Below are positions 27,422-64,000 of a stretch of 64,000 nucleotides of DNA, one piece after another (the stretch's first letter is position 1; every line of letters starts with the position of its first letter). The notes under the pieces are model-generated. The model worked only from the letters and a program-made list of their open reading frames with translations, made no database searches and was not told the DNA's origin. The translations under genes and the position numbers were made by a program. Source of the DNA: Mugil cephalus (taxonomy: Eukaryota > Chordata > Actinopteri > Mugiliformes > Mugilidae). The DNA lies in NCBI RefSeq assembly GCF_022458985.1, contig NC_061782.1, forward strand, positions 24,069,672 through 24,133,671. Reading direction: 5' to 3'.

Positions 27422-27639
27422 TCTATGAGAGAGATGAAAAGTTTGCATTTCAATTTCATCAAGAACTCTGAAGATGGAAAAGTCAGGTACAAAAAAGTCT
27501 CCTAGACAATCAAACATGAGAGCAAAGATGTTTAAAAGAAAAACAATATTTTTGGTTAATGCACGACACATCATCGGAGTTATTCAACCAAAATTAAAAA
27601 AAATATATACAGACTTATTGGCATGTTAAAAGTAGAGGC

Positions 27640-28118
27640 CAGGGGTCGGCAACCCGCGGCTCCGGAGCCGCATGCGGCTCCTTCGTTCCTCTGTTGCGGC
27701 TCTCTGTGGCGAGTGGTGCGGAGCAAGGACGCTGATCAAAGCCGTTCACTTTTTCACGCTAACTGCCTCAGAATAGCGGCAACTAGTCACTCATCGGTGA
27801 ACGAGCGAGAGCTGCACAACAACTGAATGACACTGAATGCCACACCACACTCACGGTTGTAACATCAAACAACCAAAAAACACTGAACTCCCACAGTGCA
27901 TTGCAGCACATTAGTTGCTACACTCGTTGCTATCGAGTATTTAATTCAAATGTATTTTTATTTTAGTTTAGTTTTTTAAATATAATTCTAAATTTGAATT
28001 GATGATGATCTTTTAACATTAAAATAAAATGTATTTAATTTTTTGTCGCTCAAAATATACGTCACAACTGCCTGCGACCAGGTCCAGCCCGCTATTTATT
28101 GAATTTTTCGACCCCCAG
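27640..28118. mobile_element. hAT-like DNA transposon relic
   Basis: Starts CAGGGGTCGGCAACCCGCGG followed by CTCCGGAGCCGCATGCGGCTC, a signature of a vertebrate hAT-type family, and ends near TTTTTCGACCCCCAG, which approximates the inverted start. At about 480 bp it is far too short to carry a transposase. An exact target duplication is not visible, so the right end is approximate. Confidence 0.65.
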
Positions 28119-29487
28119 GTAAGCCAACCACGGATAAATCCCTGCTATGTCTCATAAATGCAATTCGTTTTCTCTGTAGCAGTCATTTCATTTCATAGGT
28201 GCAACACACTATAAGCCTAGCATAGAGGTGAAAACGATACATGCAGTATTATCATCATTTTAGATGTCAAAGGGGTTTTGTGGCTCCCAGTGTTTTCTTT
28301 TATGTGGGAAACGGTTCCAAATGGCTCATTTTATCATAAATCAATCAGCTATATCAGCTAGAGAGAAGTATGACAAGCCACTGCAGATAAAGATTAACAA
28401 ACCCACTGTGATGTCACTCACTAGTTTATTGAAGCGTGGTTCTGAAGCGAAGCGTGGTTTCTCTGGCCATTGGCATCTTTACTGTGCCAAACTCTACCTA
28501 ACCTCTGGCTAATGGAAAAATTAGTCCAATCTATTTAGTGAGTGAGATAGCAAGTTTTTTTTATTTTATTTTATTTATTTATTTTAAAATCATCCACTTA
28601 TAGTGGTTATCTGTATCAGGCTCTAAATATGTTTAGTTCTGTAAAATAAATAAACGCTTTTTGAGTCGGCCTCAAGTGGACACCATAGAAACTGCAGTTT
28701 CTGACACAAGATTATTTGTTTCTGCTGGGGAATGACTGAAATGAAACACGCGATTTTACTGAATATTTTTTTCTTTGTTCTCTGAGCATTGCTGCATGAT
28801 GTAAATACCTTGTGTATTTTCAGGGAACTTCAGGGACCACTGAACACATCATGGTCAACACACTGGGCTCAGACATTTGTTACTGCAACAGAACAGACCT
28901 TTCCTGGGTCTAGAAATGTGTTCGTTATCAGCTTTAGCTTTTAAATTAATGCATTTCGCTATTGTCAGACCTAGGGTTGCCACCCGTTCCATAAAATACA
29001 GAACGGGCTATATAACTATTCAGGACAACAAATATGAATATCGAAGATTTTTTTTTCTTATTTATTTATTTTTTTATATATATAACTCACTCAAGGTTTA
29101 AAGTTTTGTCTAAATGATGCCGTGGCCGCTTTAGGTGACAGATGGCCCATTTTGACCGTTTTAAATGCAAATACCTGCCTACAATTGCTGCAGTTACGAA
29201 AAACATATAAAAAAAGTGTTGTATTATATGTTCGTTGATGTTGTCTTTGCCCAACATAGTTAGCCTGGTAGCTGAAATGGTTGAGTAGCTAATTAAGCAG
29301 CTAATAAATTAGCCGTGGGTTAGCGCATCTCTGGCTGTGTTAACATGCTAACAAGTGCAAGGTTACTTTTAACGGTATATTTTAAATATAACTGAGAAAA
29401 CTGCATCTCCCAGTAACAGCCTGAGCGTTTCACAGAAAAAAACAACACTTTGATAAAGCTGCACTAAAAGAACTGTTGAGAAAAAAC
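28119..29487. other. Non-coding stretch upstream of the exon-like array
   Basis: No exon could be assigned. GGGTTGCCACCCGTTCC with ACAGAACGGGC near 28,975-29,010 looks like the end of another hAT-type element. No TATA box or CpG-rich promoter is evident for the array downstream. Confidence 0.35.
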
Positions 29488-29702
29488 TTCATGATTAATG
29501 CCATAATTAGGGAATAACTTCTAATAACCAAATCAATAATTATATGAGAATCAGAGACTCCTGTCATGACAGTGAAATCATCTGCTTTCTGTAATTTGCA
29601 TATGGAATGTAGAGAGGTTCCAGACAGTCTTTGATGTTCATCAGAACCTTTGATCAAAGCCTCAGGTTGTCAAGGAGATCCAGCCACAAACACTAAACTC
29701 TG
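29488..29702. repeat. Leader repeat, copy 1, before the exon-like array
   Basis: About 215 bp starting TTCATGATTAATGCCATAAT and ending CACAAACACTAAACTC is repeated almost exactly at 30,374-30,591. Each copy precedes a unit that carries ATGTCAGGC near its 5' end, so the leader marks the start of two successive sub-arrays. Confidence 0.85.
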
Positions 29703-30373
29703 TGTTTAAGATGTCAGGCTTAATGTCACTTTGTTTGCAGCTTTCAGATGGTAAGGTACATCTCAGATTTAGTCTCAAACACTAAACTCAGTTTAACTCT
29801 TTTTCTTCTTTTCTTTTTCAGGATTTTTCAGGAAACAATAAACCTCAGGGAGTCAAATTTCAGACATAACGTGACCTTGTTTGGAGCTTTCACATGGTAA
29901 GGTACATCTCAGATTTAGTCTCAAACACTGAACTCAGTTTAACTCTTTTTCTGCCTTTGTTTTTCAGAACTTCCAGGAAACAAGGAGCCAGATTTCAGAC
30001 TTGACATCACTTTGTTTGGAGCTTTCAGATGGTAAGGTACATCTCAGATTTAGTCTGAAACACTGAGCTCAGTTTAACTCTTTTCCTGTTTTTCTTTTTC
30101 AGGATTTCCAGGAAACAAGGAGTCAGATTTCAGACTTAACATCACTTTGTTTGGAGCTTTCACATGGTAAGGTACATCTCAGATTTAGTCTGAAACACTA
30201 AACTCAGTCTAACTCTTTTTCTTCTTTTCTTTTTCAGAACTTCCAGGAAACAAGGAGTCAGATTTCAGACTTAACGTCACTTTGGAGCTTTCAGATGGTA
30301 AGGTACATCTCAGATTTAGAAATAAGGACAGATGATGTCTAACGTGGCTTCCTTGAAATTGATTTAAAATTTA

Positions 30374-30591
30374 TTCATGATTAATGCCATAATTAGGGAA
30401 TAACTTCTAATATCCAAATCAATAATTATATGAGAATCAGAGACTCCTGTCATGACAGTGAAATCATCTGCTTTCTGTAATTTCCATATGGAATATAGAG
30501 AGGTTCCAGACAGTCTTTGATGTTCATCGGAACCTTTGATCAAAGCCTCAGGTTGTCAAGGAGATCCAACCACAAACACTAAACTCAGTGT
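30374..30591. repeat. Leader repeat, copy 2
   Basis: Near-identical to 29,488-29,702. It is followed by an acceptor-like pyrimidine tract and a core that includes ATGTCAGGCATAATGTCAC, as in copy 1. Confidence 0.85.
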
Positions 30592-31659
30592 TTAACTCTT
30601 TTTTTGCTATTGTTTTTCAGGACTTCCAGTCAAGAATAAACCTCAGGGAGTAAGATGTCAGGCATAATGTCACTTTGTTTGCAGCTTTCAGATGGTAAGG
30701 TACATCTCAGATTTAGTCTCAAACACTGAACTCAGTTTAACTCTTTTTCTTCTTTTCTTTTTCAGGATTTTTCAGGAAACAATAAACCTCAGGGAGTCAA
30801 ATTTCAGACATAACGTCACCTTGTTTGGAGCTTTCACATGGTAAGGTTCATCTCAGATTTAGTCTCAAACACTGAACTCAGTTTAACTCTTTTTCTTCTT
30901 TTCTTTTTTAGGATTTCCAGGAAACAAGGAGTCAAATTTCAGACTTAACATCACTTTGTTTGGCGCTTTCAGATGGTAAGGTACATCTCAGATTTAGTCT
31001 CAAATACTGAATACAGTTTAACTCATTTTCTTCTTTTCTTTTTCAGGATTTTACAGTAAACAGTAAACCTCGGGGAGTCAAATTTCAGACATAATGTGAC
31101 CTTGTTTGGAGCTTTCAGATGGTAAGGTACATCTCAGATTGATTCTCAAACACTGAATTTAGTTTAACTCTTTTTCTACCTTTGTTTTTCAGGACTTTCA
31201 GGAAACAAGGAGTCAGATTTCAGACTTGACATCACTTTGTTTGGAGCTTTCAGATGGTAAGGTACATCTCAGATTTAGTCTCAAATGCTGAACTCAGTTT
31301 AACTCTTTTTCTTCTTTTGTTTTTAAGGTCTTCCAGGAAACAATAAACCTCAGGGAGTCAGATTTCAGACTTAACATCACTTTGTTTGGAGCTTTCAGAT
31401 GGTAAGGTACATCTCAGATTTAGTCTCAAACACTGAGCTCAATTTAACTCCTTTTCTGCTTTTGTTTTTCAGGATTTCCAGGAAACAAGGAGTCAGATTT
31501 CAGACTTAACATCACTTTGTTTTGAGCTTTCACATGGTAAGGTACCTCTCAGATTTAGTCTCAAATGCTGAACTCAGTTTAACTGTTTTTCTGCTTTTGT
31601 TTTTCAGGATCTCACAGGTCAGTAGACTTAAACTCAGGTGAGTTTATATTCGACTTAAC

Positions 31660-32400
31660 ATCACTTGGTTTGTAGTATCTCAAAAATCTTCTATTTGTCT
31701 TCTTTAAATTTTCAATGTTTTAATGTTGTTTGATTCTTTTGGTTCAGACAAACAGGGATAGGTAATAGATTTTAAGTACCGACTATTTTCCACTGTCATC
31801 TCTGCGTTCTTCTTCAAGTTTGTCATTTTAGGTGTGACATGTACTTTTAAGGTGTTCTACCTGTAGAAGTTGTGTCGTACGGTCCTCATTGTGAGCTGAG
31901 TCCATCTGTTGTTTGAGATGTAATGTCCTCATCCTGATTCTTGGTCCGGTCGCCTGCTTCCTGATTCGATGTCCGACAGTTTGTGGTGGACTGGGGGTGT
32001 CTTTGGAGGTCCAGAGCAGGCACTGGTCGCTATGTGTGGGTTTCATGTGTATTGTTACTTTGACTGCTCCGTCATCTTTGTGGTTACTTTGCCAACTTGT
32101 TGACTGAATGGGGATGAGGAGCGTCCATGGCTCTACACACATAGGGACTCTCTCCTCCTAGTAGTCCTTCGGGCTGCCAGGGGCATTTGGCCGACTGGTG
32201 GATCACTATTCGACCACAGGCCTACAGGAGGAGCACCTTTTTAAAAGTACAACGTCTACCTTCCCAGATGACGGCCTGCTAAAGAAGGATCGCACGTGAC
32301 ATTGAAATCATGTCAGGTATTTAAAGAATCCTTTAACTGTACCCTTTTGTCTACCAAAAGAATCAAACACCATCGCTGTTTGAGCTTTCAGATGTCAGGT
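31660..32400. repeat. Higher-order spacer block, copy 1
   Basis: Starts near CTCAAAAATCTTCTATTTGTC, includes TTCAATGTTTTAATGTTGTT, GACAGTTTGTGGTGGACTG, TTGTTACTTTG and GGAGGAGCACCTTTTTAAAAG, and ends at ATCAAACACCATCGCT before a fresh run of units. It holds splice-like words (GGATAGGTAA; CCTGTAG). Partial open frames here differ between copies, so coding is not supported. Confidence 0.8.
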
Positions 32401-33904
32401 ACATTCAGAACTTAGCCACAATCACTAAACTCATAAGATTTAAACTCTTCGTTTTGTTTGTTTCAGATTTCAGAAAGCAATACTCAGAGGAGTCAATTTC
32501 AGACATAATGTTCATTTTGTTTGGAGCTTTCCATGGTAAGGTTACATCTGAGATTAGTCTCAAAGCACCAATTAGCTATGCATTTTAATCTCTTTTCTCC
32601 TTTTGCTTTCAGGATTTCCAGAAAACAAGGACTCAGATTTCAACTTAACCTCACCTTGTTTGGAGCTTTCAGATGGTAAGGTTCATCTCAGATTTAGTCT
32701 CAAATACTGAATACAGTTTATGCTTTGTTCTGCTTTCATTTTTCCAGGATTTCAGAAACAAGGATTTAATTTCAGACTTAACATCACTTTGGAGCTTTCA
32801 GAAATGTAAGGTACATCTTAGATTTGACTTGAAACACTGAGCTCAGTTTAACCTTTTTCTTCTTTTTTTTCAGGAATTTCAGGAAACATTAAACCTCAGG
32901 GCATTCAATTTTTCAGGACATTAATGGACATATTTGGAGCTTTCAGATGTAAGGTACTCAGATTTAGTCTCAATATGAATCAGTTTAACATTTCTTCTTT
33001 TGTTTTACAGGACTTCAGGTAAATATTTGGTCTATGTTTCGACTTAATGTCAAACTTGGAGCGTTTCACTGGTAGGTAATTCAGATTTAGTCTGTAAACA
33101 CTAAACTAGGTTTAACTTTTTTTTAACTGCTTTTCTGTTTCAGGATTTCCGAAACAGGATTCAGATTTCGACTTAAGGCGATCATCTTGGAGCTTTCAGA
33201 TGGTAAGGTACATCTCAGATTTACTCTGAAACACTGAGCTCAGTTTAACTCCTTTTCTGCTTTTGTTTTTCAGGACTTCCAGGAAACAAGGAGTCAGATT
33301 TCAGACTTAACATCACTTTGTTTGGAGCTTTCAGATGGTAAGGTACATCTCAGATTTAGTCTGAAACACTGAGCTCAGTTTAACTCTTTTTCTGCTTTTT
33401 TTTTGGATTCAGGAATTATTCTCAGGAGCAATCAGACAATAAACCTCAGGGAGTCAATATTTCAGACTTACGTGACCTTGTTTGAAGACTAATCAATGTA
33501 AGGTTCTTCGATTTAGTTCTTTCAAATTCATACTGAAATGCAGTTTAACTCTTTTTCTGCTTTTGTTTTTCAGGACTTCCAGAAGAAAAATCTCCCTCTG
33601 CAGATTCAGATTTCAGATTAAGTCATCATGGTTGGAATTTCAATTGTAATGTTATCATCTCAGATTTATTCTCAAATTACGAAACAATTTAACTCTTTTC
33701 TGCTTTTCTTTTTCAGGACTTCCAGGAACAAGGAGTCAGATTTCAGATTAACGTCAACTTCGGAGCTTTCAGATGGTAAGGTACTATCTGCATTTGATTT
33801 TAGTCTGAAACATAAACTCAGTACTAACTCTTTTCAGCGTTTCTTTTTCAGGACTTCCAGGAAACAATCTTTGGATGTATATTTCAGACTTTAACATCTA
33901 CTTG

Positions 33905-34600
33905 TTTGTATTTTAATTCTAAGATTCTTTTTGTCTCTTAAATTTTCAATGTTTTAATGTTGTTTGATTCTTTTGGTTCGACAGAAGGGATAGGTAAGAT
34001 TTTTAAGTACCTGACATGTTTCCACTGTCATCTGCGTTCTTGTTCAGAGTTGTCATCTGGTAGGAGTGACATGTACTGTTAAAATGGTGTTCCTCCTGTA
34101 GACGTGGCCGACGGTCTCTGGAGGACAGAGTCCCATCTGTGAGAGCTGATGCTCCCTCATTTCCGATTCATGGTCGGGTCGCTGCTTCCATGATCTCGAT
34201 GTCCTGACGTTTGTGGTGGATTGGGTGTGTTTGGAAGTCCAGTGCAGGGCACTGGTCGGTACTTTGTGGGTTTCCTGGTATTGTTACTTTGATGCTGCTG
34301 TCATCTTTGGGTTAATTTGCCAACTTTTGACCATGATCAGGATGAGGGAGCATCCATGCTTGACCATCACATGGACTCTACTCCTCAGAGCCATCGGGCC
34401 TTTAGGGGCATGGCGACTGGTGGATCTACGACCACGCCTACAGGAGGAGCACCTTTTTAAAAGTACACGTCACCTTCTACCAGATGACGCCTCTAAAAGA
34501 CTGCACGTGACACATAAAACATGTCAGGTATTTAAAAATCTTAACTGTCCCTTTTGTCTTACCAAAGAATCAAACACCATCGCTTTGTTGGAGCTTTCAA
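33905..34600. repeat. Higher-order spacer block, copy 2
   Basis: Same landmarks as copy 1, with small indels. Its 145-codon frame (34,213-34,650) is not preserved in other copies and is not called a gene. Confidence 0.8.
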
Positions 34601-35749
34601 TGTTGGACATTCTCAGACTTAGCCACAATACACTAAACTCCATACTTTAAACTCTCCTGTTTGTTTTTCAAGATTTCCAGAATGTCAATTTAACTCAGAG
34701 GAGTTCAGAATTCAGACATAACGTCACTTTGTTTGGAGCTTTCACATGGTAAGGTGCATTCTCAGATTTGGGTCTCAACATCGAACTCAGTTTAACTCAT
34801 TTTTCTTCTATTTACTTTTTCAGAACTTCCAGGAAACAGGTTCGATTTCAGTACTTCAACATCCTTTGGAAGAGTCGATTTCAGACTTATGGTAAGGTCA
34901 TCTCAGATTTAGTCTGAAACACTCAAACTTAGTTTAACTCTTTTCTTCTTTTCTTTTTCAGGATTTTTCAGGAAACAATAAACCTCAGGGAGTCAAATTT
35001 CAGACATAACGTCACCTTGTTTGGAGCTTTCAGATGGTAAGGTACATCTCAGATTTAGTCTCAAATACTGAATACAGTTTAACTCTTTCTGCTTTTCTGT
35101 TTCAGGATTTCCAGAAAACAAGGATTCAGATTTCAGACGTAACATCACTTTGTTTGGAGCTTTCAGATGGTAAGGTACATCTCAGATTTACTCTGAAACA
35201 CTGAGCTCAGTTTAACTCTTTTTCTGCTTTTCTTTTTCAGGATTTTTCAGGAAACAATAATTTAAACCTCAGGAGATGTTGACTTTAATTTTCAGCATTT
35301 AACGTGACCTTGTTTGGACTTTCAATGTAAGTTCATCTTCATGTTTTAGTCTCAAATACTGAATACAGTTTAACTCTTTTTCTGCTTTTGTTTTTCAGGA
35401 CTTCCAGAAGAAAAATCTCCCTCTGCAGATTCAGATTTCAGACTTAACGTCACCTGGTTTGGAATTTTCAGATGGTAAGGTACATCTCAGATTTAGTCTC
35501 AAATACTGAACTCAATTTAACTCTTTTTCTGCTTTTCTTTTTCAGGACTTCCAGGAAACAAGGAGTCAGATTTCAGACTTAACGTCACTTCGGAGCTTTC
35601 AGATGGTAAGGTACATCTCAGATTTAGTCTCATTCACTTTTAATTACTCGTTAACTGAAACATTATTCTTGCTTTCTTTTTCATGGACTTCCAGAAACAA
35701 ATCTTAGGGTTAGATCTATACTTTTTGTTTTCAATTCATGTTATGGATT

Positions 35750-36400
35750 TGTTAAAATACTTGGTTTGTTAGTATCTCAAAATCTTCTATTGTCTTCTTA
35801 AATTTCATGTTTTAATGTTGTTTGATCTTGGTTCGACAGAAGGATAGGTAAGTTTTTAAGTACCTGACATGTTTCCTGTCATCTGCGTCTTGTTCGAGTT
35901 GTATCTGGTGGTGACTGTACTTAAATGGTGTTCTCTGTACGTGGCGACGGTCTGAGGCGAGTCCCATCTGTGGTAGAGCATGAATGCTCCCTCATCCCGA
36001 TTCTGGTCCGGTCGCCTGCTTCTGATCTCGATGTCCTGACAGTTGTGTGGACTGTGGGTGTTTGGAGTCCAGAGGCATGGTCGTATTGTGGTTTCTGTGT
36101 ATTGTATTTGATGCTGCTGTCATCTTGGTTAATTTGCCAACTTTTGACTGAATCGATGAGGAGCATCCATGCTCTACCTCCATAGGACTCTCTCTCCAGC
36201 CATCGGGCGGCAGGGGGCATGCCGACTTGGTGGATCTATGGACCACGCTACAGGAGGAGCACCTTTTAAAGTACACGTCACCTTTACCAGTGACGCTTCT
36301 AAGATGACTGCACGTGACTGTTAAACATGTCGGTATTTTAACAATCTTAACTGTCCCTTTTGTCTTACCAAAGAATCAAACCCTCGCTTGTTTGGAGCTT
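35750..36400. repeat. Higher-order spacer block, copy 3
   Basis: Same landmarks, but with dense single-base deletions (for example GACAGTTGTGTGGACTG against GACAGTTTGTGGTGGACTG). The most degraded copy. Confidence 0.8.
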
Positions 36401-37759
36401 TCAGAGGTTCGGTCATCCAGACTTGCCACAAACACAAACTCATAGTTTAACTCTTCTGTTTTTGTTTTTCAAGATTTCCAGAAAGCAATAACTCAGAGGG
36501 AGTCAGATTTCAGACATAATGTCATTTTGTTTGGAGCTTTCACATGGTAAGGTACATCTGAGATTTAGTCTCAAACACCAAACTCAGTTTAACTCTTTTT
36601 CTCCTTTTGCTTTTCAGGATTTCCAGAAAACAAGGAGTCAGATTTCAGACATAACGTCACTTTGTTTGGAGCTTTCAGATGGTAAGGTACATCTCAGATT
36701 TAGTCTCAAATACTGAATACAGTTTAACTCTTTTTCTGCTTTTCTTTTTCAGGATTTCCAGAAAACAAGGATTCAGATTTCAGACTTAACATCACTTTGG
36801 AGCTTTCAGATGGTAAGGTACATCTTAGATTTACTCTGAAACACTGAGCTCAGTTTAACTCTTTTTCTTCTTTTCTTTTTCAGGATTTTTCAGGAAACAA
36901 TAAACCTCAGGGAGTCAAATTTCAGACATAATGTGACCTTGTTTGGAGCTTTCAGATGGTAAGGTACATCTCAGATTTAGTCTCAAATACTGAATACAGT
37001 TTAACTCTTTTTCTGCTTTTGTTTTTCAGGACTTCCAGAAAAACCCGGATTCAATTTCAGACGTAACATCACTTTGGTTTGGAGCTTTCAGCTTTGTAAG
37101 ACATTTAATTTATTCTGAACATGAGACTAGTTTAACTCTTTTTCTGCTTTTTTTTTTCAGGATTTTTCAGGAAACAATAAACCTCGAGAGTCAAATTTCT
37201 AGACATACATCGTGACATGTGTTTGGAGCTTTCAGATTGGTAAGGTATCATTCAGATTTAGTCCAAATATGAATTCAGTTTAACTCTTTTTCTTGCTTTT
37301 GTTTTTCAGACTTTCCAGAAACAACCTCGCAGATCATTTCAGACTTAGACATCCTGTCTGGACTTTCAGATGGTAGGTACATCTCAGATTTAGTCTCAAT
37401 ACTGAACTCATTTAACTCTTTTTCTCTTGTTCTTTTAAGGACTCCAGGAAACAAAACGAGTCAGTTTCACATAACGTCACTTCGGAGCTTTCAGATGGGT
37501 AAGGTACATCTCAGATTTAGTCTCAAATGCTGAACTCAGTTTAACTCTTTTTCTTCTTTTGTTTTTAAGGTCTTCCAGGAAACAATAAACCTCAAGGAGT
37601 CAGATTTCAGACTTAACGTCACTTCGGAGCTTTCAGATGGTAAGGTACCTCTCAGATTTGGTCTCAAATGCTGAACTCAGTTTAACTGTTTTTCTGCTTT
37701 TGTTTTTCAGGATCTCCAGGAAACAAACCTCAGGGAGTCATATGTCAGACTTAACATCA

Positions 37760-38425
37760 CTTGGTTTGTAGTATCTCAAAAATCTTCTATTTGTCTTCTT
37801 TAAATTTTCAATGTTTTAATGTTGTTTGATTCTTTTGGTTCGACAGAAGGGATAGGTAAGATTTTTATTACCTGACACTGTTCCTCTGTTACTCTGGTTC
37901 TTCTTCGTTGTCATTGTAGGATGAATGTCTTTTACAAAGGTTCCTCCTGTAGACGTGCCGCGTCTGGAGGGCAGTCCATCTGTGGAGACATGAATGTACC
38001 TCTTCCTGAGTTCATGGTCCGGTACATCTCTGTTCCTGATCTCGATGTCTGACAGTTTTTGGTGGACTGTGGTGGTGTTTGGAGGTCCAGAGCAGACACG
38101 GTCGGTATGTTGGGTTTCTGTGTATTGTTACTTTGATGCTGCGTCACTTTGTGGTTACTTTTGCCATTTCTTTGTACATGAATCGTTTGAGGAGACCATC
38201 TATACCACATGGGACTCTCTCCTTCAGAGCCATACGTGGCATGGGGCATGGCACGACTGGTGGATTCTATCGACCACGAGCCATACAGAGAAGCACCTTT
38301 TTAAATGTACATCGTCACCTTCCACAGATGACGCCTCTAAAGATAGACTGCACGTGGACACTTAAAAGCATTCAGTATTAAAATCTAATTCCTTTTTGTC
38401 TTTCAAAGAATCAAAACAACCATGC
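37760..38425. repeat. Higher-order spacer block, copy 4
   Basis: Same landmarks, with both insertions and deletions relative to copies 1 and 5. Confidence 0.8.
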
Positions 38426-39784
38426 TTTGTTTGGAGCTTTCAGATGGTAGGTACATCTCAGACTTAGTCCAAATACTAACTCAGTTTAACTCTTTTGTTT
38501 TTGTTTTTCAAGATTTCCAGAAAGCAATAACTCAGAGGGAGTTAGATTTCAGACATTAACGTCACTTGGAGCTTTCAATGGTAAGGTACATCTAGATTTA
38601 TCTAAATCTGAACTCAGTTTAACTTTTTTCTGCTTTTGTTTTCAGGATTTTCAGGAAACAAACCTCAGGGAGTCAATTTCAGACTAACTCACTTGTTTGG
38701 AGCTTTCACATGGTAAGGTACATCTCAGTTTTGATCTCAAAATACTGAATCATTTAAACTCTTTTTCTTCTCTTTCTGTTTCAGGATTTCCGAGATAACA
38801 GGATTCAGATTTCGACTTAAGGGCACTTTGAGAGCTTTCCAGTGTGGTTATAAGGTACATCTCTGATTGATGTCTACAGTTTGATACACATGATGTCTAT
38901 GTTTTAACTCTTCTTTGTTTTTCTTTTCAGGATTTCACAAAACTAGGAGTCCAGATTTAGACTTAAACATCACTTTTTAGAGCTCTTTCAGATGGTTAAG
39001 TGTACATTCTCAGATTTAGATCTTCCTCAAATGATGAACTCGTTTTAAACTTTATTTTTTCTGCTTTTCTTTTTCAGGATTTCCAGGAAACACTAGAGTC
39101 TGATTTCAGACTTAAATCACTTGTTTGGAGCTTTCAATGGTAAGGTACATCTCAGATTTGTCGAAATACTAAACTCAGTTTAACTCTTTTTCTTCTGTTG
39201 CTTTTTCAGGATTCCAGGAAACAAAGGAGTCAGATTTCAGACTAAACGTACCTTTGGAGCTTTCAGATGGTAAGGTACATCTCAGATTTAGTCTAAACAC
39301 TGAACTCAGTTTAACTCTTTTTCTGCTTTTGTTTTTTCCAGGATCTTCCAGGATTACTTTAGATGGAGTCAGATTTGCGAACTTAACTCGTCTTCATTTC
39401 GGGAGACTTATCATGTTATTTGGGTAAGGTACATCTCAGATTTAGTCTCAAATACTGAACTCAGTTTAACTTCTGCTTTGTTTCTGACTTTTTGTTTTTC
39501 AGTGGAGTCTCTCAGTGAAAACTAAACTCAGGAACTTTCTGAGTTTCACTCGGACATTGATTATAAATCACTTTGGTTTTGGTAGGTACTAATTACGACT
39601 GGTTAAAGGTTTTCACTCAGAAAGTATTTCTTAGTCATGACATGTAACTCTCGATTATTAACTGACTTTTAACTGTTTTTCTCTTTTGTTCGACCCGACA
39701 TCAGGACAAACAATGTCTTTAGGAGTCAGATTTCAGATTCTTAACATAACTTTGTTTGTTCAGATTTCAAAAGGATATTCAGAT

Positions 39785-40390
39785 ATCACTTGGTTCTGTC
39801 TTCTTTAAATTTTCAATGTTTTAATGTTGTTTGATTCTTTTGGTTCGACAGAAGGGATAGGTAAAGTTTTTAAGTACCTGACATGTTTCCACTGTCATCT
39901 GCGTTCTTGTTCAGAGTTGTCATCTGAATGCTCCCTCATCTCAATTCATGGTCCGGTCCGCCCGCTTCCTGATCTCGATGTCCTGACAGTTTGTGGTGGA
40001 CTGTGGGGTGTTTGGAGGTCCAGAGCAGGCACTGGTCGGTATGTGTGGGTTTCCTGTGTATTGTTACTTTGATGCTGCTGTCATCTTTGTGGTTACTTTG
40101 CCAACTTTTGACCATGAATCGGGATGAGGGAGCGTCCATGCTCTACCACACATGGGACTCTCTCCTCCAGAGCCCATCAGGTGGCAGGGGGCATGGCCGA
40201 CCTGGTGGATCTATCGACCACGCCTACAGGAGGAGCACCTTTTTAAAAGTACACGTCACCTTCACCAGATGACGCCTCTAAAGAAGACTGCAGGTGACAC
40301 TTAAAACATGTCAGATATTTAAAAATCTTAACTGTCCCTTTTGTCTTACCAAAAGAATCAAACACCATCGCTTTGTTTGGAGCTTTCAGA
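39785..40390. repeat. Higher-order spacer block, copy 5
   Basis: Cleanest copy, with GTCCTGACAGTTTGTGGTGG and CCTACAGGAGGAGCACC intact. It lacks part of the early segment (ACATGTACT...CCTGTAG) seen in the other copies. Followed by the unit variant AAGCAATAACTCAGAGGGAG, which begins each run after a block. Confidence 0.8.
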
Positions 40391-40684
40391 TGTTCAGATT
40401 TTTGTTATTCAAGATTTCCAGAAAGCAATAACTCAGAGGGAGTTGGATTTCAGACATAACGTCACTTTGGAGCTTTCAAATGGTAAGGTACATCTTAGAT
40501 TTACTCTGAAACACTGAGCTCAGTTTAACTCTTTTTCTGCTTTTCTTTTTTCAGGATTTTTCAGGAAACGATAAACTCACTTTTTCACTTTGTTTGGCTT
40601 TCAGATGGTAAGGTACATCTTAGGTTTAGCCACATACACTTAAACTCTTAACACTTAAACTCTTTTTCTCCTTTTGTCTAACAG

Positions 40685-40765
40685 GTGGCGTGCCAACCCA
40701 GATCTGTGATTTATTATTTGTTTATAAGTATATGAATCAATAAACAACACGAGACAAAATCAAAA
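40685..40765 (+). other. Candidate terminal exon and 3' end of the array transcript
   Basis: After the last intron-like part (ending TTTTGTCTAACAG at 40,684) the sequence leaves the repeat and reads GTGGCGTGCCAACCCAGATC, with an AATAAA at 40,739-40,744. Two of the possible entry phases reach a stop soon (TGA at about 40,707 or TAA at about 40,740). The combination of last acceptor, short unique segment and polyadenylation signal is what a 3'-terminal exon would look like. No transcript evidence is available. Confidence 0.5.
40739..40744 (+). promoter_or_regulatory. Candidate polyadenylation signal AATAAA
   Basis: First canonical AATAAA after the array's last acceptor, 54 nt downstream of it. 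Confidence 0.45.
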
Positions 40766-56375: not shown

Positions 56376-58067
56376 CTATAACTATAGCAAAGAAGGTAAA
56401 CTCTTTCAGTTCTGTCAGGAGTACAGTTTGTCTTCTAGCTGCCACGCATACATCACACTCTATGCAAAAGAAGGTGGAGATAACCGTCAAACTGGATTAA
56501 TATCATGTGTTGGAGGATGTTTTGCTCCTTCCTGACCCCTCTGATGAACACGCAATAATGTTCGATATCTCACTTCCTCATATGAATAGATTTAGGGGAC
56601 CAGAAACCTCCCACGTGTCACATTCTGCTGGTGCAGAGGATAGAACCAAGACTAGTGTGAGGAACTCCTTCACGTTTGATCTTGCAACTTTCTGAGGTAA
56701 ATATTGGAAATTTTAAGAAGGAACAAAGACATAAAAAAATTAATTAAAAAAAAAAAGCAATGAAAATAAATCTGTAACAATTAGAACATCATTGGGCTGT
56801 AGATGTGAAGAGCACTGCAGTTAAAACAGTTTTGCTTTATTTCATTTGCACTTTTTCCTCCTGAACTTTTATTAGTATGTGCAGTGTGTAGCCAATGTGA
56901 CTGTGTCACCAGTGGTGCGGGGAGTAATCCCACATATTGCTTAAATTGACTAAAAAAATATTGCAAAAATCTAATTCCTGCATTCCAGTTTTGATACAAT
57001 TAAATGTTCAGTGACAATGTTGCAGTGACATTTATGCTCATAAATAATATATCTAGATATGGTTTTCTGTGGTAATTTGTTGTAAGTACTTTTAATTCAT
57101 TAGTTAATATTTTGTATAGAGTTGAAACTCGTGAGGATTTTCTGCTGCAGACCGTGAGCGGAGCAGGATCCACTGATCAGTTAGACTATAAAAGACTGGT
57201 CTTCACATAGTCACCCTGATAGTGTTGCCAGATTGGGCAGTTTTCTATCTTATTTTGCAGTTAAAAATAGAACTGGACCATCTGGGAGCCAGAACAACTC
57301 TGATCTGGAGTTTCTGAGTTGAGAACTGATTGCTCTCCTACACAGACTGGGGTCCAATGAATTCATATGTGCAGTCTGTATGTGGTGATAGACAGAAGAG
57401 TAACAGTGATGTAGGCAAACATGTCAACTATAACACTTTGTTCTCTAGAAGCGGGCGGTTTAGATTCCACTGTCGAGTCTGTTGTAAATGATTTTCGTGG
57501 CTTAATAGCTTTAAAGGACAAACAGGTAATATAAGTATCTGCCTATGAGTGACTACATGATGTCATCAGATGCCTGCATAGGAGACAGATGTGATTACTT
57601 GGTGGTAGTTGGAAAATTTCTGTGTAGCTGCATTGATTTCTACCAATGTAAGCAATCTGGGTGGTAAAACTACTAAACAAAACATCAGTCTAACATTTTG
57701 GATGGTTTTGTGTGTGTGTTGGTGATCTTTTAGCTGCTAGTAGACAGCTCTTACCTGCTGTCTCAGCACACTACTGGTGCTTTGTGTGGTTGTGTGTGTG
57801 TATCTCATTCACCTGAATTCTGCTTTTGTGTTTGTTTATTTGGGCGTTACACTCTGTAGCTTTATTACTGTCTGTTATTTCTGCTAATGGGTTTGCAAAT
57901 ATGTAAAGAAATCCTCATCAAAAAGTAGCCTTAGTGTCCCATAGTGAAACCTTCCGCACAAGCACCTTTGTCTAACCAAATGGGAAAACCTTAGAAGTGT
58001 TCAAAATGAATCAAAACATCTGAAGACTGTGAGTATCATTGCAATCTATATGTTTCTTATCTCCCAG
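56376..58067. other. Region between pseudogene and receptor; likely 5' region of the receptor
   Basis: No coding exon recognised. It includes a TATA-like CTATAAAAG at 57,186-57,194. An acceptor-like TTATCTCCCAG ends at 58,067, so at least one upstream non-coding exon of the receptor is expected in or before this stretch. Confidence 0.4.
57186..57194 (+). promoter_or_regulatory. Candidate TATA box for the receptor gene
   Basis: CTATAAAAG in a locally less AT-rich context, about 0.9 kb before the receptor start codon. Position fits a promoter for an upstream 5' untranslated exon, but nothing in the sequence proves use. Confidence 0.2.
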
Positions 58068-58089
58068 GCACCGGGATTCACATTCAAGA

Positions 58090-59126
58090 ATGGAAGATCT
58101 GAACAACAGCAACAGCTCATGGGACCAAAATTATGATACCAACATCAGCGCTGGCAATTCCAGCATCAGATATGGCTGCTATAATGGCAACGAAGGATTC
58201 ATCGTATATGTGGTCTCATGGATCGTTATTTGCGTCGGACTGCCTTTGACCCTATTGGCCGTCTATGCCGTTTCTTCTTGGGTGAGTTCATTACAACTGA
58301 GGACGAGATGAAGTTCAGAGTTTACAAATGCTTTGCCCAATTTTGACAATATTTTCCTGCAGAGCCGAAACGATCACAGTGCTCACATCTACGCCACCAA
58401 CCTCCTCATTTCTGATCTAATTCAGCTCTGCTGCATGATTGCTTGGGTGGCAGGCGAGAAATGCAAGGAAATGCTTTTTTTGTACTTTTTTGGTGTGTTT
58501 TCCAGCGTTGGCTTCATGGTGTGTATTTCCCTGGAAAGGTAACTCTCTCCCTGATACAGTTGGTGTGTAACTACATCGATGTCTAACCATTTTCTAAGTA
58601 TATAATTATGTTGTTCCTAAAAGACTGTACATGCGTGTGTGTCTTTCGTTGCAGGTACCTGGTCATTGCGTGGCCGCTGTGGTACAGATGTAGACGAACC
58701 ATCAAAAACTATGTGGTGACCTGCACCATCGTCTGGGTCCTCCCTCTTATTTTTGTCCTGCTGTGCTTTTACACTAAAGACCGTATCCAATTAACCATCA
58801 TTGCTGTCTTCCTCTTCCTCCCCCTCCCCCTGTTCATCTTCTTCCTGCGTGGGACTCTTAAAGCCCTATCTGCATCCCTCAGTGTCCCCACCGATGAAAA
58901 ACGCAGAATTGTGGCAGTTTTGGTTGTGATTCTGCTTATTTACACACTGCTGTTCCTGCCCTGCATCATTTTGTCACTGGCAGCAGCCGAAATGAGCCAC
59001 GGCTACAGAATGATAACTTTCATTCTTACGCAGATCAGTCCTCTTGCAGATCTGATTTTGTACATTTTCATCAGAAAAGGTGCCACAGACAAGCTTTTGG
59101 CCTCTCTGTGTTTTTGTAGAATGTAG
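58090..59126 (+). CDS. Class A G-protein-coupled receptor, three coding exons, 279 aa
   Basis: Exons 58,090-58,281, 58,363-58,538 and 58,655-59,126 have GT...AG introns of 81 and 116 bp and join in frame (192+176+472 nt). The ATG at 58,090 is chosen because an acceptor (TCTCCCAG, 58,067) lies just upstream; the frame before it is intronic. The N-terminus has sequons at N5, N8, N18 and N23. Seven hydrophobic spans: about 38-60, 72-93, 101-121, 141-162, 168-188, 206-233 and 241-262. TM2 has NLLISDL (D82). TM3 ends in ERY (122-124), a DRY variant, split by intron 2. C98 and C160 can form the usual disulphide. TM7 has ADLILY (254-259), an NPxxY variant with proline lost. The tail is very short and has CFC. 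AWPLWYRCRR resembles Mas-related and GPR4-like receptors of fish. Ligand is unknown. It should act at the plasma membrane. Confidence 0.88.
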
Positions 59127-62834: not shown

Positions 62835-64000
62835 TTGTGTGACCATGTAAATAGGAATGGTTTGTTTCAATCAGGTTTTAGAGTTAATCACAATACATGA
62901 AGAGCTCTGGTTAAAGTTAACAACAATGTCCTCATGGCTTCAGACATTGGACTTGTCTCTATACTTGTCCTTCTAGATCTTAACGCTGCTGTTGAAACTA
63001 GTGATCACAATATTTTACTACAGTGTGATGTAGATAAAAGGAACCACATTAAATTGGTTTGAATCTAATCTACACACATTCCACACACATTCCAGTTTGT
63101 CCATCTCAACAATAATTCTTCTACTTACACAAAGGTAAGCTATGGAGTCCCTCAGGGTTCTGTGCTAGGACCAATATTATTCACATTATACATGCTTCCC
63201 TTAGGCAATATTATTAGAAAGCACGGCATAAACTTCCATGCTATGCAGATGATACCCAGCTATATTTATCCAAGAACCCAGATGAAACTAATCAGCTGGC
63301 TAAACTCCAAGCATGCCTTAAAGACATAAAGGATCGGATGACCTGTAATTTTCTACTCTCACACAAAACAGAAGTCATTGTATTTGGCATTACCGTGGCC
63401 TCCAGCACTACTGTGAAAAACCTTGGTGTTATATTTGACCAGGATTTGTCCTTTAATTCTCACATAAAGCAGGTGACCAGGACTGCTTTCTTTCACCTGC
63501 GAAATATCGTCAAAATTAGGAACATCCTTTCTCAGAGTGATGCTGAAAAACTAGTTTGTGCATTTGTGTCTTCCAGGCTGGATTATTGTAACTCATTACT
63601 GTCTGGCTGTCCAAATAGCTCTTTAAAAAGCCTCCAATTGATTAAAATGCTGCAGCAAGATCACTGACAGGAATTAGCAAGAGAGGTCATATTACTCCCA
63701 TTTGAGCTTCTGAACCATCCCTTAATATGCTGCAATAAGCCTAGGCAACTGAGCACATGCCCTCTACTCTCTTCTCTTTCACACCATACTCCTATCATGT
63801 ACTTTGTTTTCTCTGGCACCCAGCTCTCATCCTTTATTTTCTCATCCAATTTCTTCTCTAATATTAGTCATGCAATTCTGTGCAACTACTGTACAGCATG
63901 TTAATTGCTGTGCCTCCCTCTGACCCCTCCCCCTTCCATCCACCCCCTTCCCCTTCCCTCCTCCTCCTCCTCCTCCATCTTCTTGTGAATGTCTCACAAG
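62835..64000 (+). mobile_element. L2/CR1-like LINE, 5'-truncated and frameshifted
   Basis: Reverse-transcriptase motifs appear in order: LFQSGFRVNHNT (about 62,860), [13 protein letters not shown] (63,144-63,182), the catalytic YADDTQLY (63,242-63,265), and VKNLGVIFDQDLSF with SSRLDYCNSLLSG in the open frame 63,338-63,667. The first motif pair lies in different frames (GVPQG at phase 0, YADD at phase 2), so a base has been lost between them, and stops interrupt the upstream part. The C-rich 3' region with CCCTCTGACCCCTCC, and a (CTC)n stretch at 63,957-63,976, look like the element's 3' untranslated part, running to the window edge. Endonuclease and ORF1 are absent. Confidence 0.85.

Follow-up and report, generated by a model that had tools for sequence, protein, structure and literature searches.

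Within a 64,000-nt stretch of the genome of the flathead grey mullet Mugil cephalus, a percomorph fish of the order Mugiliformes (assembly GCF_022458985.1, contig NC_061782.1, positions 24,069,672 to 24,133,671; hereafter the window, numbered from its first letter), lies a tandem array whose repeat unit resembles a small exon followed by a minimal intron. A search with nhmmer using a profile of the 135-nt unit (64-nt core plus 71-nt intron-like part) gave 56 matches (E≤0.01), all on the plus strand between 29,706 and 40,680. Forty-five of them cover at least 100 of the 135 model columns and are regarded as near full length; the other 11 are partial and were left out of the rate counts given below. 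At the same threshold no copy of the unit was found outside the array within the window. The profile was built from 17 seed units chosen by a pattern demanding GTAAG and a terminal AG, and is therefore biased towards intact units. These matches bear out the initial annotation, made from the sequence alone, which had described about 45–50 exon-like units with a 71-nt intron. The array is, however, broken by five hairpin blocks of ∼600 nt and by one 323-nt intron, and the annotation had overlooked both these blocks and the short indels, resembling assembly error, in many of the odd units.

On the basis of their position and indel load, 20 of the 45 near-full-length units were classed as clean and 25 as noisy. 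In the consensus, the 64-nt core is followed by a 71-nt stretch that starts GTAAGGTACATCTCAG and finishes TTTGTTTTTCAG. Clean cores are 60, 64, 70, 74, 75 or 76 nt long, which agrees with the annotated range of 60–76 nt, and the annotated GTAAGG donor is uninterrupted in all 20 clean units and in 18 of the 25 noisy ones. Introns were measured in 19 of the 20 clean units; all 19 start with GTAAGGT and finish with AG, 18 being 71 nt and one 69 nt long, and in the remaining unit, at 33274, the acceptor end is absent. The TTTAAC motif, which had been placed about 25 nt before the acceptor, has its 3′ edge 24 nt upstream of the intron end (consensus columns). The TTAAC within it matches the vertebrate branch-site pattern, with the second A 25 nt from the intron end. 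In block 1, the intron at 30298–30620 reaches 323 nt owing to an insert, and its donor and acceptor are intact. A longer core type (e.g., at 29837, 30781, 34977, and 36899) has an exonic AATAAA, which in several units might serve as an internal polyadenylation signal. As the minimal vertebrate intron size is put near 76 bp in PMC9438311, the 71-nt introns lie at or just under this minimum.

Clean and noisy units

Compared with the consensus, the clean units carry 167 mismatches and 19 gap events, and the noisy units 230 and 259. Mismatch rates are thus similar (0.063 in clean and 0.073 in noisy units; for noisy units realigned rates are used throughout, the profile alignment having given higher values), and gap events are 12-fold commoner in noisy units (0.083 vs. 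0.007). The contrast in gaps is partly circular because the sorting drew partly on indels, and it is the similarity of the mismatch rates that carries information. The hairpin copies, compared with one another, likewise show an excess of 1-nt gaps. A similar mismatch rate together with many short gaps points to unpolished long-read errors and not to decay, and the indels of 25 of the 45 units look like those typical of unpolished long reads at sites to which no short reads could be assigned. A mullet assembly described in PMC9247318 was produced from PacBio subreads by WTDBG2, Illumina reads being used for polishing, and the window presumably belongs to it. That the noisy units are old degenerate copies was rejected as far as the indels are concerned, their mismatch rate being near that of the clean units. 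Long-read error left unpolished can shape gene models in such arrays.

Variation along the unit and coding potential

We defined 21 splice columns, comprising donor positions −3 to +6, TTTAAC, and the last six intron bases. In the clean units (n = 20), mismatches occur in 3/417 cells of these columns, compared to 87/1179 in the core body, 47/700 in the intron body, and 30/360 in the pyrimidine tract. The corresponding counts for the noisy units (n = 25) are 10/510, 113/1471, 72/875, and 35/450. Splice positions thus vary about tenfold less than the rest of the unit in clean copies and about fourfold less in noisy ones, and the equal substitution at splice and other positions that the initial annotation had named as counting against its reading is not seen. 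When the mask of splice columns was shifted circularly, 0 of 134 shifts (clean units) and 1 of 134 (noisy units) were equally low. Three randomly placed blocks had a mean of 28 mismatches, with 3 or fewer in 0.035% of 20,000 trials (P = 0.00035); this comparison hides insertions inside donors, and donor counts were therefore taken separately. Base-matched random columns had a mean of 33 mismatches, and none of 20,000 draws was as low as 3. Counted by column, 2 of the 21 splice columns are variable, compared to 43 of 96 others with the pyrimidine tract excluded (P = 0.0025; 0.0028 without CpG columns). All these mismatch cells come from related copies and are not independent. The splice sites look functional and held by selection, in copies that share descent, and the low variation of their columns argues against a neutral satellite varying evenly along the unit.

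Gap events show a less uniform picture. In the noisy units, 21/510 fall within the 21 splice columns, which is rarer than at any of 134 shifts and fits plain noise poorly. Donors of noisy units are hit by gaps almost as often as other places (16/225). Their acceptors have 0/135 gap events; gaps are hard to score there, at the edge of the alignment. Gap events in the clean units affect 17/1,239 core cells vs. 2/1,417 intron cells (P = 0.0002), several of the core gaps being shared by descent.

The initial annotation had also considered a gene with massively amplified mini-exons. The arrangement of mini-exons and mini-introns with quiet splice positions stands; a coding gene built from them does not. 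Core lengths of 64, 70, 74, and 76 nt break the reading frame, the core at 31,047–31,121 has stops in every frame, and three runs of joined clean cores have stops in all three frames. Mismatches are distributed evenly over the codon positions (22/297, 21/297, and 23/295 in core columns 17–61), that is, without codon periodicity. When a 424-residue composite made from open translations of the cores was scored against 8,000 candidate proteins of 0.55–1.75 times its length, drawn from a database that includes mullet proteins, none matched at E≤10. Taken together, these findings indicate that the predicted spliced product of the array is non-coding, and a coding reading of the cores was rejected on these grounds. 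As to the other possibility raised in the initial annotation, a repeat that creates potential exons wherever it spreads, the search covered the window and showed no unit beyond the array.

Database searches assigned the locus to no known family. Searched against Pfam, the reading frames in the hairpin blocks gave nothing above the cut-off. There was no Rfam match at the gathering cut-off, and at E≤1 one unrelated, chance-level match (mir-320, minus strand, E = 0.22). In exact-pattern scans the unit was absent from viral and prokaryote collections and the hairpin from the viral collection only, as expected for fish DNA. Among the titles and abstract openings listed from the open-licence literature, none reported this locus or described mini-exon units arranged in tandem in a fish.

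Hairpin elements

All five blocks that interrupt the array represent the same inverted repeat of ∼600 nt, which folds into a long hairpin. It has near-symmetrical ends (GTTTGATTCTTTTGG...CCAAAAGAATCAAAC) and interrupts a unit core. No target-site duplication was seen by eye in the copy alignment, and no further copy exists within the window. The copy S2 folds strongly on both strands, so that fold energy is uninformative on the strand. In the five-copy consensus the arms match at 205/270 positions (∼76% complementary), and the 65 arm mismatches, read on the plus strand, include 26 G-U vs. 5 A-C (P = 0.0002). Untranscribed DNA should give G-U and A-C equally. Directional changes in the units predict ∼59% G-U (20 vs. 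16 column events, site-scaled), and 26 of 31 still departs from this value (P = 0.003). In the single copies S1 to S5 the G-U:A-C ratios are 9:4, 30:9, 19:5, 11:5, and 18:8.

The sequence around the hairpins suggests how they might be removed. In the last unit before the hairpin, TTTTTCAG is kept in 3 of 5 copies (S1, S2, and S4), but without GTAAGG. A candidate donor within the left arm has GGTAA in 5/5 and GTAAG in 3/5 copies. The half unit after the hairpin has an exact GTAAGG in 0/5 copies, and the acceptor that follows ends in CAG or AAG in 5/5; in S4 this half unit reads GTAGGT, maybe an intact donor minus one base, which makes donor decay uncertain. With no exact GTAAGG in the flanking units and a candidate donor within the left arm, the hairpin would sit in an intron of ∼700 nt.

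Features of the mini-exon array and its hairpin blocks; positions are counted from the first letter of the window.
Feature	Position	Strand	Remarks
Whole array	29706..40680	+	nhmmer; 56 copies (45 near full length) of the exon-like plus intron-like 135-nt unit
Block 1	29706..31607	+	13 matches, 11 near full length; cleanest stretch
Block 2	32369..33908	+	12 matches, 10 near full length; mostly noisy
Block 3	34578..35684	+	8 matches, 7 near full length; clean and noisy
Block 4	36384..37771	+	11 matches, 9 near full length; clean and noisy
Block 5	38419..39770	+	9 matches, 7 near full length; noisy
Final units	40364..40684	+	3 matches, 1 near full length; last acceptor CTAACAG ends at 40684
Direct repeat, ∼220 nt	29488..29708	+	Upstream array edge; 97% identical to 30374-30594, the second copy inside the 323-nt intron
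Hairpin copy S1	31723..32373	+	Inverted repeat
Hairpin copy S2	33957..34580	+	Fold −314.5 kcal/mol, z −11.8 (20 shuffles)
Hairpin copy S3	35815..36381	+	Noisy
Hairpin copy S4	37819..38430	+	Noisy, end approximate
Hairpin copy S5	39824..40368	+	Left arm partly absent; fold −245.8 kcal/mol, z −12.9 (100 shuffles)
Candidate donor GGTAAG in left arm of S2	33993..33998	+	GATAG/GTAAG; putative use
Alternative candidate donor	31638..31643	+	CAG/GTGAGT, before S1 only; putative use
Candidate terminal exon	40685..40760	+	Putative; AATAAA at 40739, end approximate

Other features of the window lie apart from the array. A GPR4-like receptor gene is present in several frames at 58033–59123 (plus strand), and its fragment at 58,587–59,123 is 98% identical to a Mugil cephalus GPR4-like receptor and identical over the last 157 aligned residues, in keeping with an origin from this species or from a mullet very near to it. 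A reverse transcriptase fragment in overlapping frames at 63069–63664 (plus strand; RVT_1, below the Pfam cut-off) is probably a remnant of a long interspersed nuclear element. The sequence at 27639–28120 starts with CCAGGGGTCGGCAACCCGCGGCTCCGGAGCCGC, which may resemble the ends of hAT-type elements.

Gene model and related systems

The observations to be explained are the anatomy of the unit, the low variation of its splice positions, the lost reading frame, and the hairpins with their G-U bias. With some reserve, we lean towards the array body being a plus-strand spliced non-coding RNA gene that expanded as an exon-intron unit was multiplied in tandem; that it is transcribed and spliced, the order of its exons, its ends, and the role of its RNA we infer from the sequence throughout. 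According to this model, one mini-exon and one minimal intron would have been amplified in tandem, followed by amplification of blocks of 1.8–2.7 kb, each with 7–11 near-full-length units and one hairpin element. The spliceosome would excise the 71-nt introns and join dozens of exons of 60–76 nt into a repeat-built RNA. Each ∼600-nt hairpin would most simply lie within a longer intron that reaches from the left-arm donor (GATAG/GTAAG) to the acceptor of the next unit, and the transcript would end after the last acceptor at 40,684 with the AATAAA at 40,739. What selection would maintain is the splicing of the RNA, perhaps along with pairing of the hairpin on the plus strand, and not a protein. 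The most likely role of such an RNA would be that of a multivalent repeat RNA or of a source of stable intronic or hairpin RNA.

Several observations weigh against this model. Because the copies share ancestry, their cells cannot be counted as independent, and intact sites guided the choice of the seed units. The zone of low variation at the donor reaches ∼15 nt past the splice site, an uninterrupted GTAAGG is absent in 7 of the 25 noisy units, one clean unit lacks the acceptor, and the introns, at 71 nt, fall short of the 76 bp below which introns rapidly become fewer according to PMC9438311. With regard to the hairpins, the G-U bias is significant on its own only in S2 and S3 and not in S1, S4, and S5, and changes confined to a single copy are without G-U bias (45:44; noisy data). 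Moreover, there are 25 pyrimidine-pyrimidine vs. 9 purine-purine mismatches (P = 0.009), and the plus strand of the element is rich in T, with a T-A skew of 0.21 vs. 0.03 outside the array. Neither the pyrimidine mismatch excess nor the T-richness is predicted by pairing selection alone, so that strand-biased mutation fits at least as well. The G-U bias thus suggests either that a plus-strand RNA is selected to pair or that mutation has been strand-biased during long-standing transcription in this direction; in either case the strand indicated would be the one that carries the splice sites.

Among the alternatives, a relic satellite would be an old gene piece (exon, intron, and exon edge) that was tandemly amplified and is now neutral, its splice signals being undecayed leftovers. 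In line with this, the units are fairly young (nearest-neighbor divergence among the 20 clean units is 2–7% for 18 and 9–11% for the other two), some of them lack a donor or an acceptor, and no protein or Rfam family matches. Neutral copies should, however, vary evenly, which the about tenfold (clean) and fourfold (noisy) lower variability of the splice columns argues against, and we consider such a relic unlikely, though not negligibly so. A protein-coding gene, or a recent pseudogene of one, with amplified in-frame mini-exons would draw on a known arrangement, that of tandem coding mini-exons, and the 75-nt cores are divisible by three and have one open frame in 3 of the 4 clean copies examined; frame-breaking cores, stops in all joined frames, even codon positions, and the unmatched composite largely refute it and leave it very improbable.

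Two further explanations concern the hairpins. If the locus were a hairpin-RNA locus, the five hairpins would be its product, diced to small RNAs, and splicing would merely assemble or release the precursor. Very stable hairpins in tandem, the G-U bias of one strand, and the precedent of Drosophila hairpin-RNA loci, described as long hairpins transcribed from the genome that make endogenous small interfering RNAs, speak for this view. Some of the Drosophila loci are in tandem arrangement, and like the mullet locus they contain long genomic hairpins. They are not known to include an array of conserved mini-exons. No hairpin-RNA locus of this sort is known to be well described in fish, which counts against the idea; in addition, it leaves the conserved splice sites in dozens of units unexplained, and the arms are just ∼76% complementary. 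We give it a chance as slim as that of a coding gene, if not slimmer. Far more weight, somewhat short of an even chance, attaches to the hairpin blocks being a foldback DNA element, similar to miniature inverted-repeat transposable elements, that was inserted in one unit before block amplification and has no RNA role. This would account for the hairpins only and is compatible with the mini-exon gene. The inverted repeat with its near-symmetrical ends, the interruption of a unit core, and the lack of G-U bias among copy-private changes favor such an element, whereas untranscribed DNA predicts equal numbers of G-U and A-C where 26 to 5 were observed, no target-site duplication was visible, and the window holds no other copy.

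The layout of a spliced mini-exon gene with hairpins recalls the W repeats (IR1) of Epstein-Barr virus (EBV), with the exons W1 and W2, ebv-sisRNA-1, and a long-intron hairpin. The exons are described as measuring 66 and 132 nt, and the introns as a short one of 81 nt and a long one of 2,791 nt, in which a very long hairpin is predicted (PMC3751371); homologous hairpins in a related virus span ∼597 nt by the coordinates given (PMC3751371 and PMC5834210). Small exons, a short intron, and a long hairpin per tandem block are common to both, a likeness in layout only, with the use of the mullet sites being putative. In contrast to the mullet exons, which appear non-coding and are without a known promoter, the EBV W exons are reported to code for EBNA-LP and each unit has its own promoter. 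Unlike the W repeats, the mullet array has 7–11 near-full-length units per hairpin. No sequence relation between EBV and the mullet array was found in searches that covered Rfam and two exact-pattern scans of viral contigs; whether Rfam 15 includes EBV RNA families was not checked, which bears on the negative Rfam result.

The long non-coding RNA Firre, in which the local repeat RRD is reported in 7 of 13 human and 11 of 23 mouse exons (PMC4820808), is likewise a non-coding RNA with many exons that are copies of a local repeat. As described, however, its repeats are discontinuous in the locus, whereas the tandem unit in mullet consists of an exon and a minimal intron. Introners are repeated sequences with spliceosomal signals, and vertebrates are listed in PMC9860276 among the groups without a pattern of introner gain. 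They resemble the mullet unit in that a repeat carries the splice signals, but introners are described as inserting into many genes, whereas the mullet introns form one array and none was found elsewhere in the window. We class the locus as probably a spliced non-coding gene and as a variant among repeat-built RNA genes, outside the EBV W-repeat, Firre, and introner classes. Only tentatively, and with more doubt than confidence, do we propose a vertebrate nuclear gene convergent on the W-repeat layout, in which ∼50 non-coding tandem mini-exons, minimal introns, and hairpins in longer introns would be under selection for splicing and RNA pairing and not for exon sequence; its product could be a multivalent repeat RNA, or stable RNAs from its introns, or the two together.

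If tandem repeats are conserved at all, the reason commonly assumed is chromatin or protein, whereas here it is the splice code that resists change, and it does so in non-coding sequence. If the array is spliced, a single transcript would need dozens of near-identical minimal introns to be removed, and the locus would offer a natural test bed for the pairing of neighboring sites by the spliceosome, for exon skipping among identical choices, and for the growth of new non-coding genes from an exon-intron seed.

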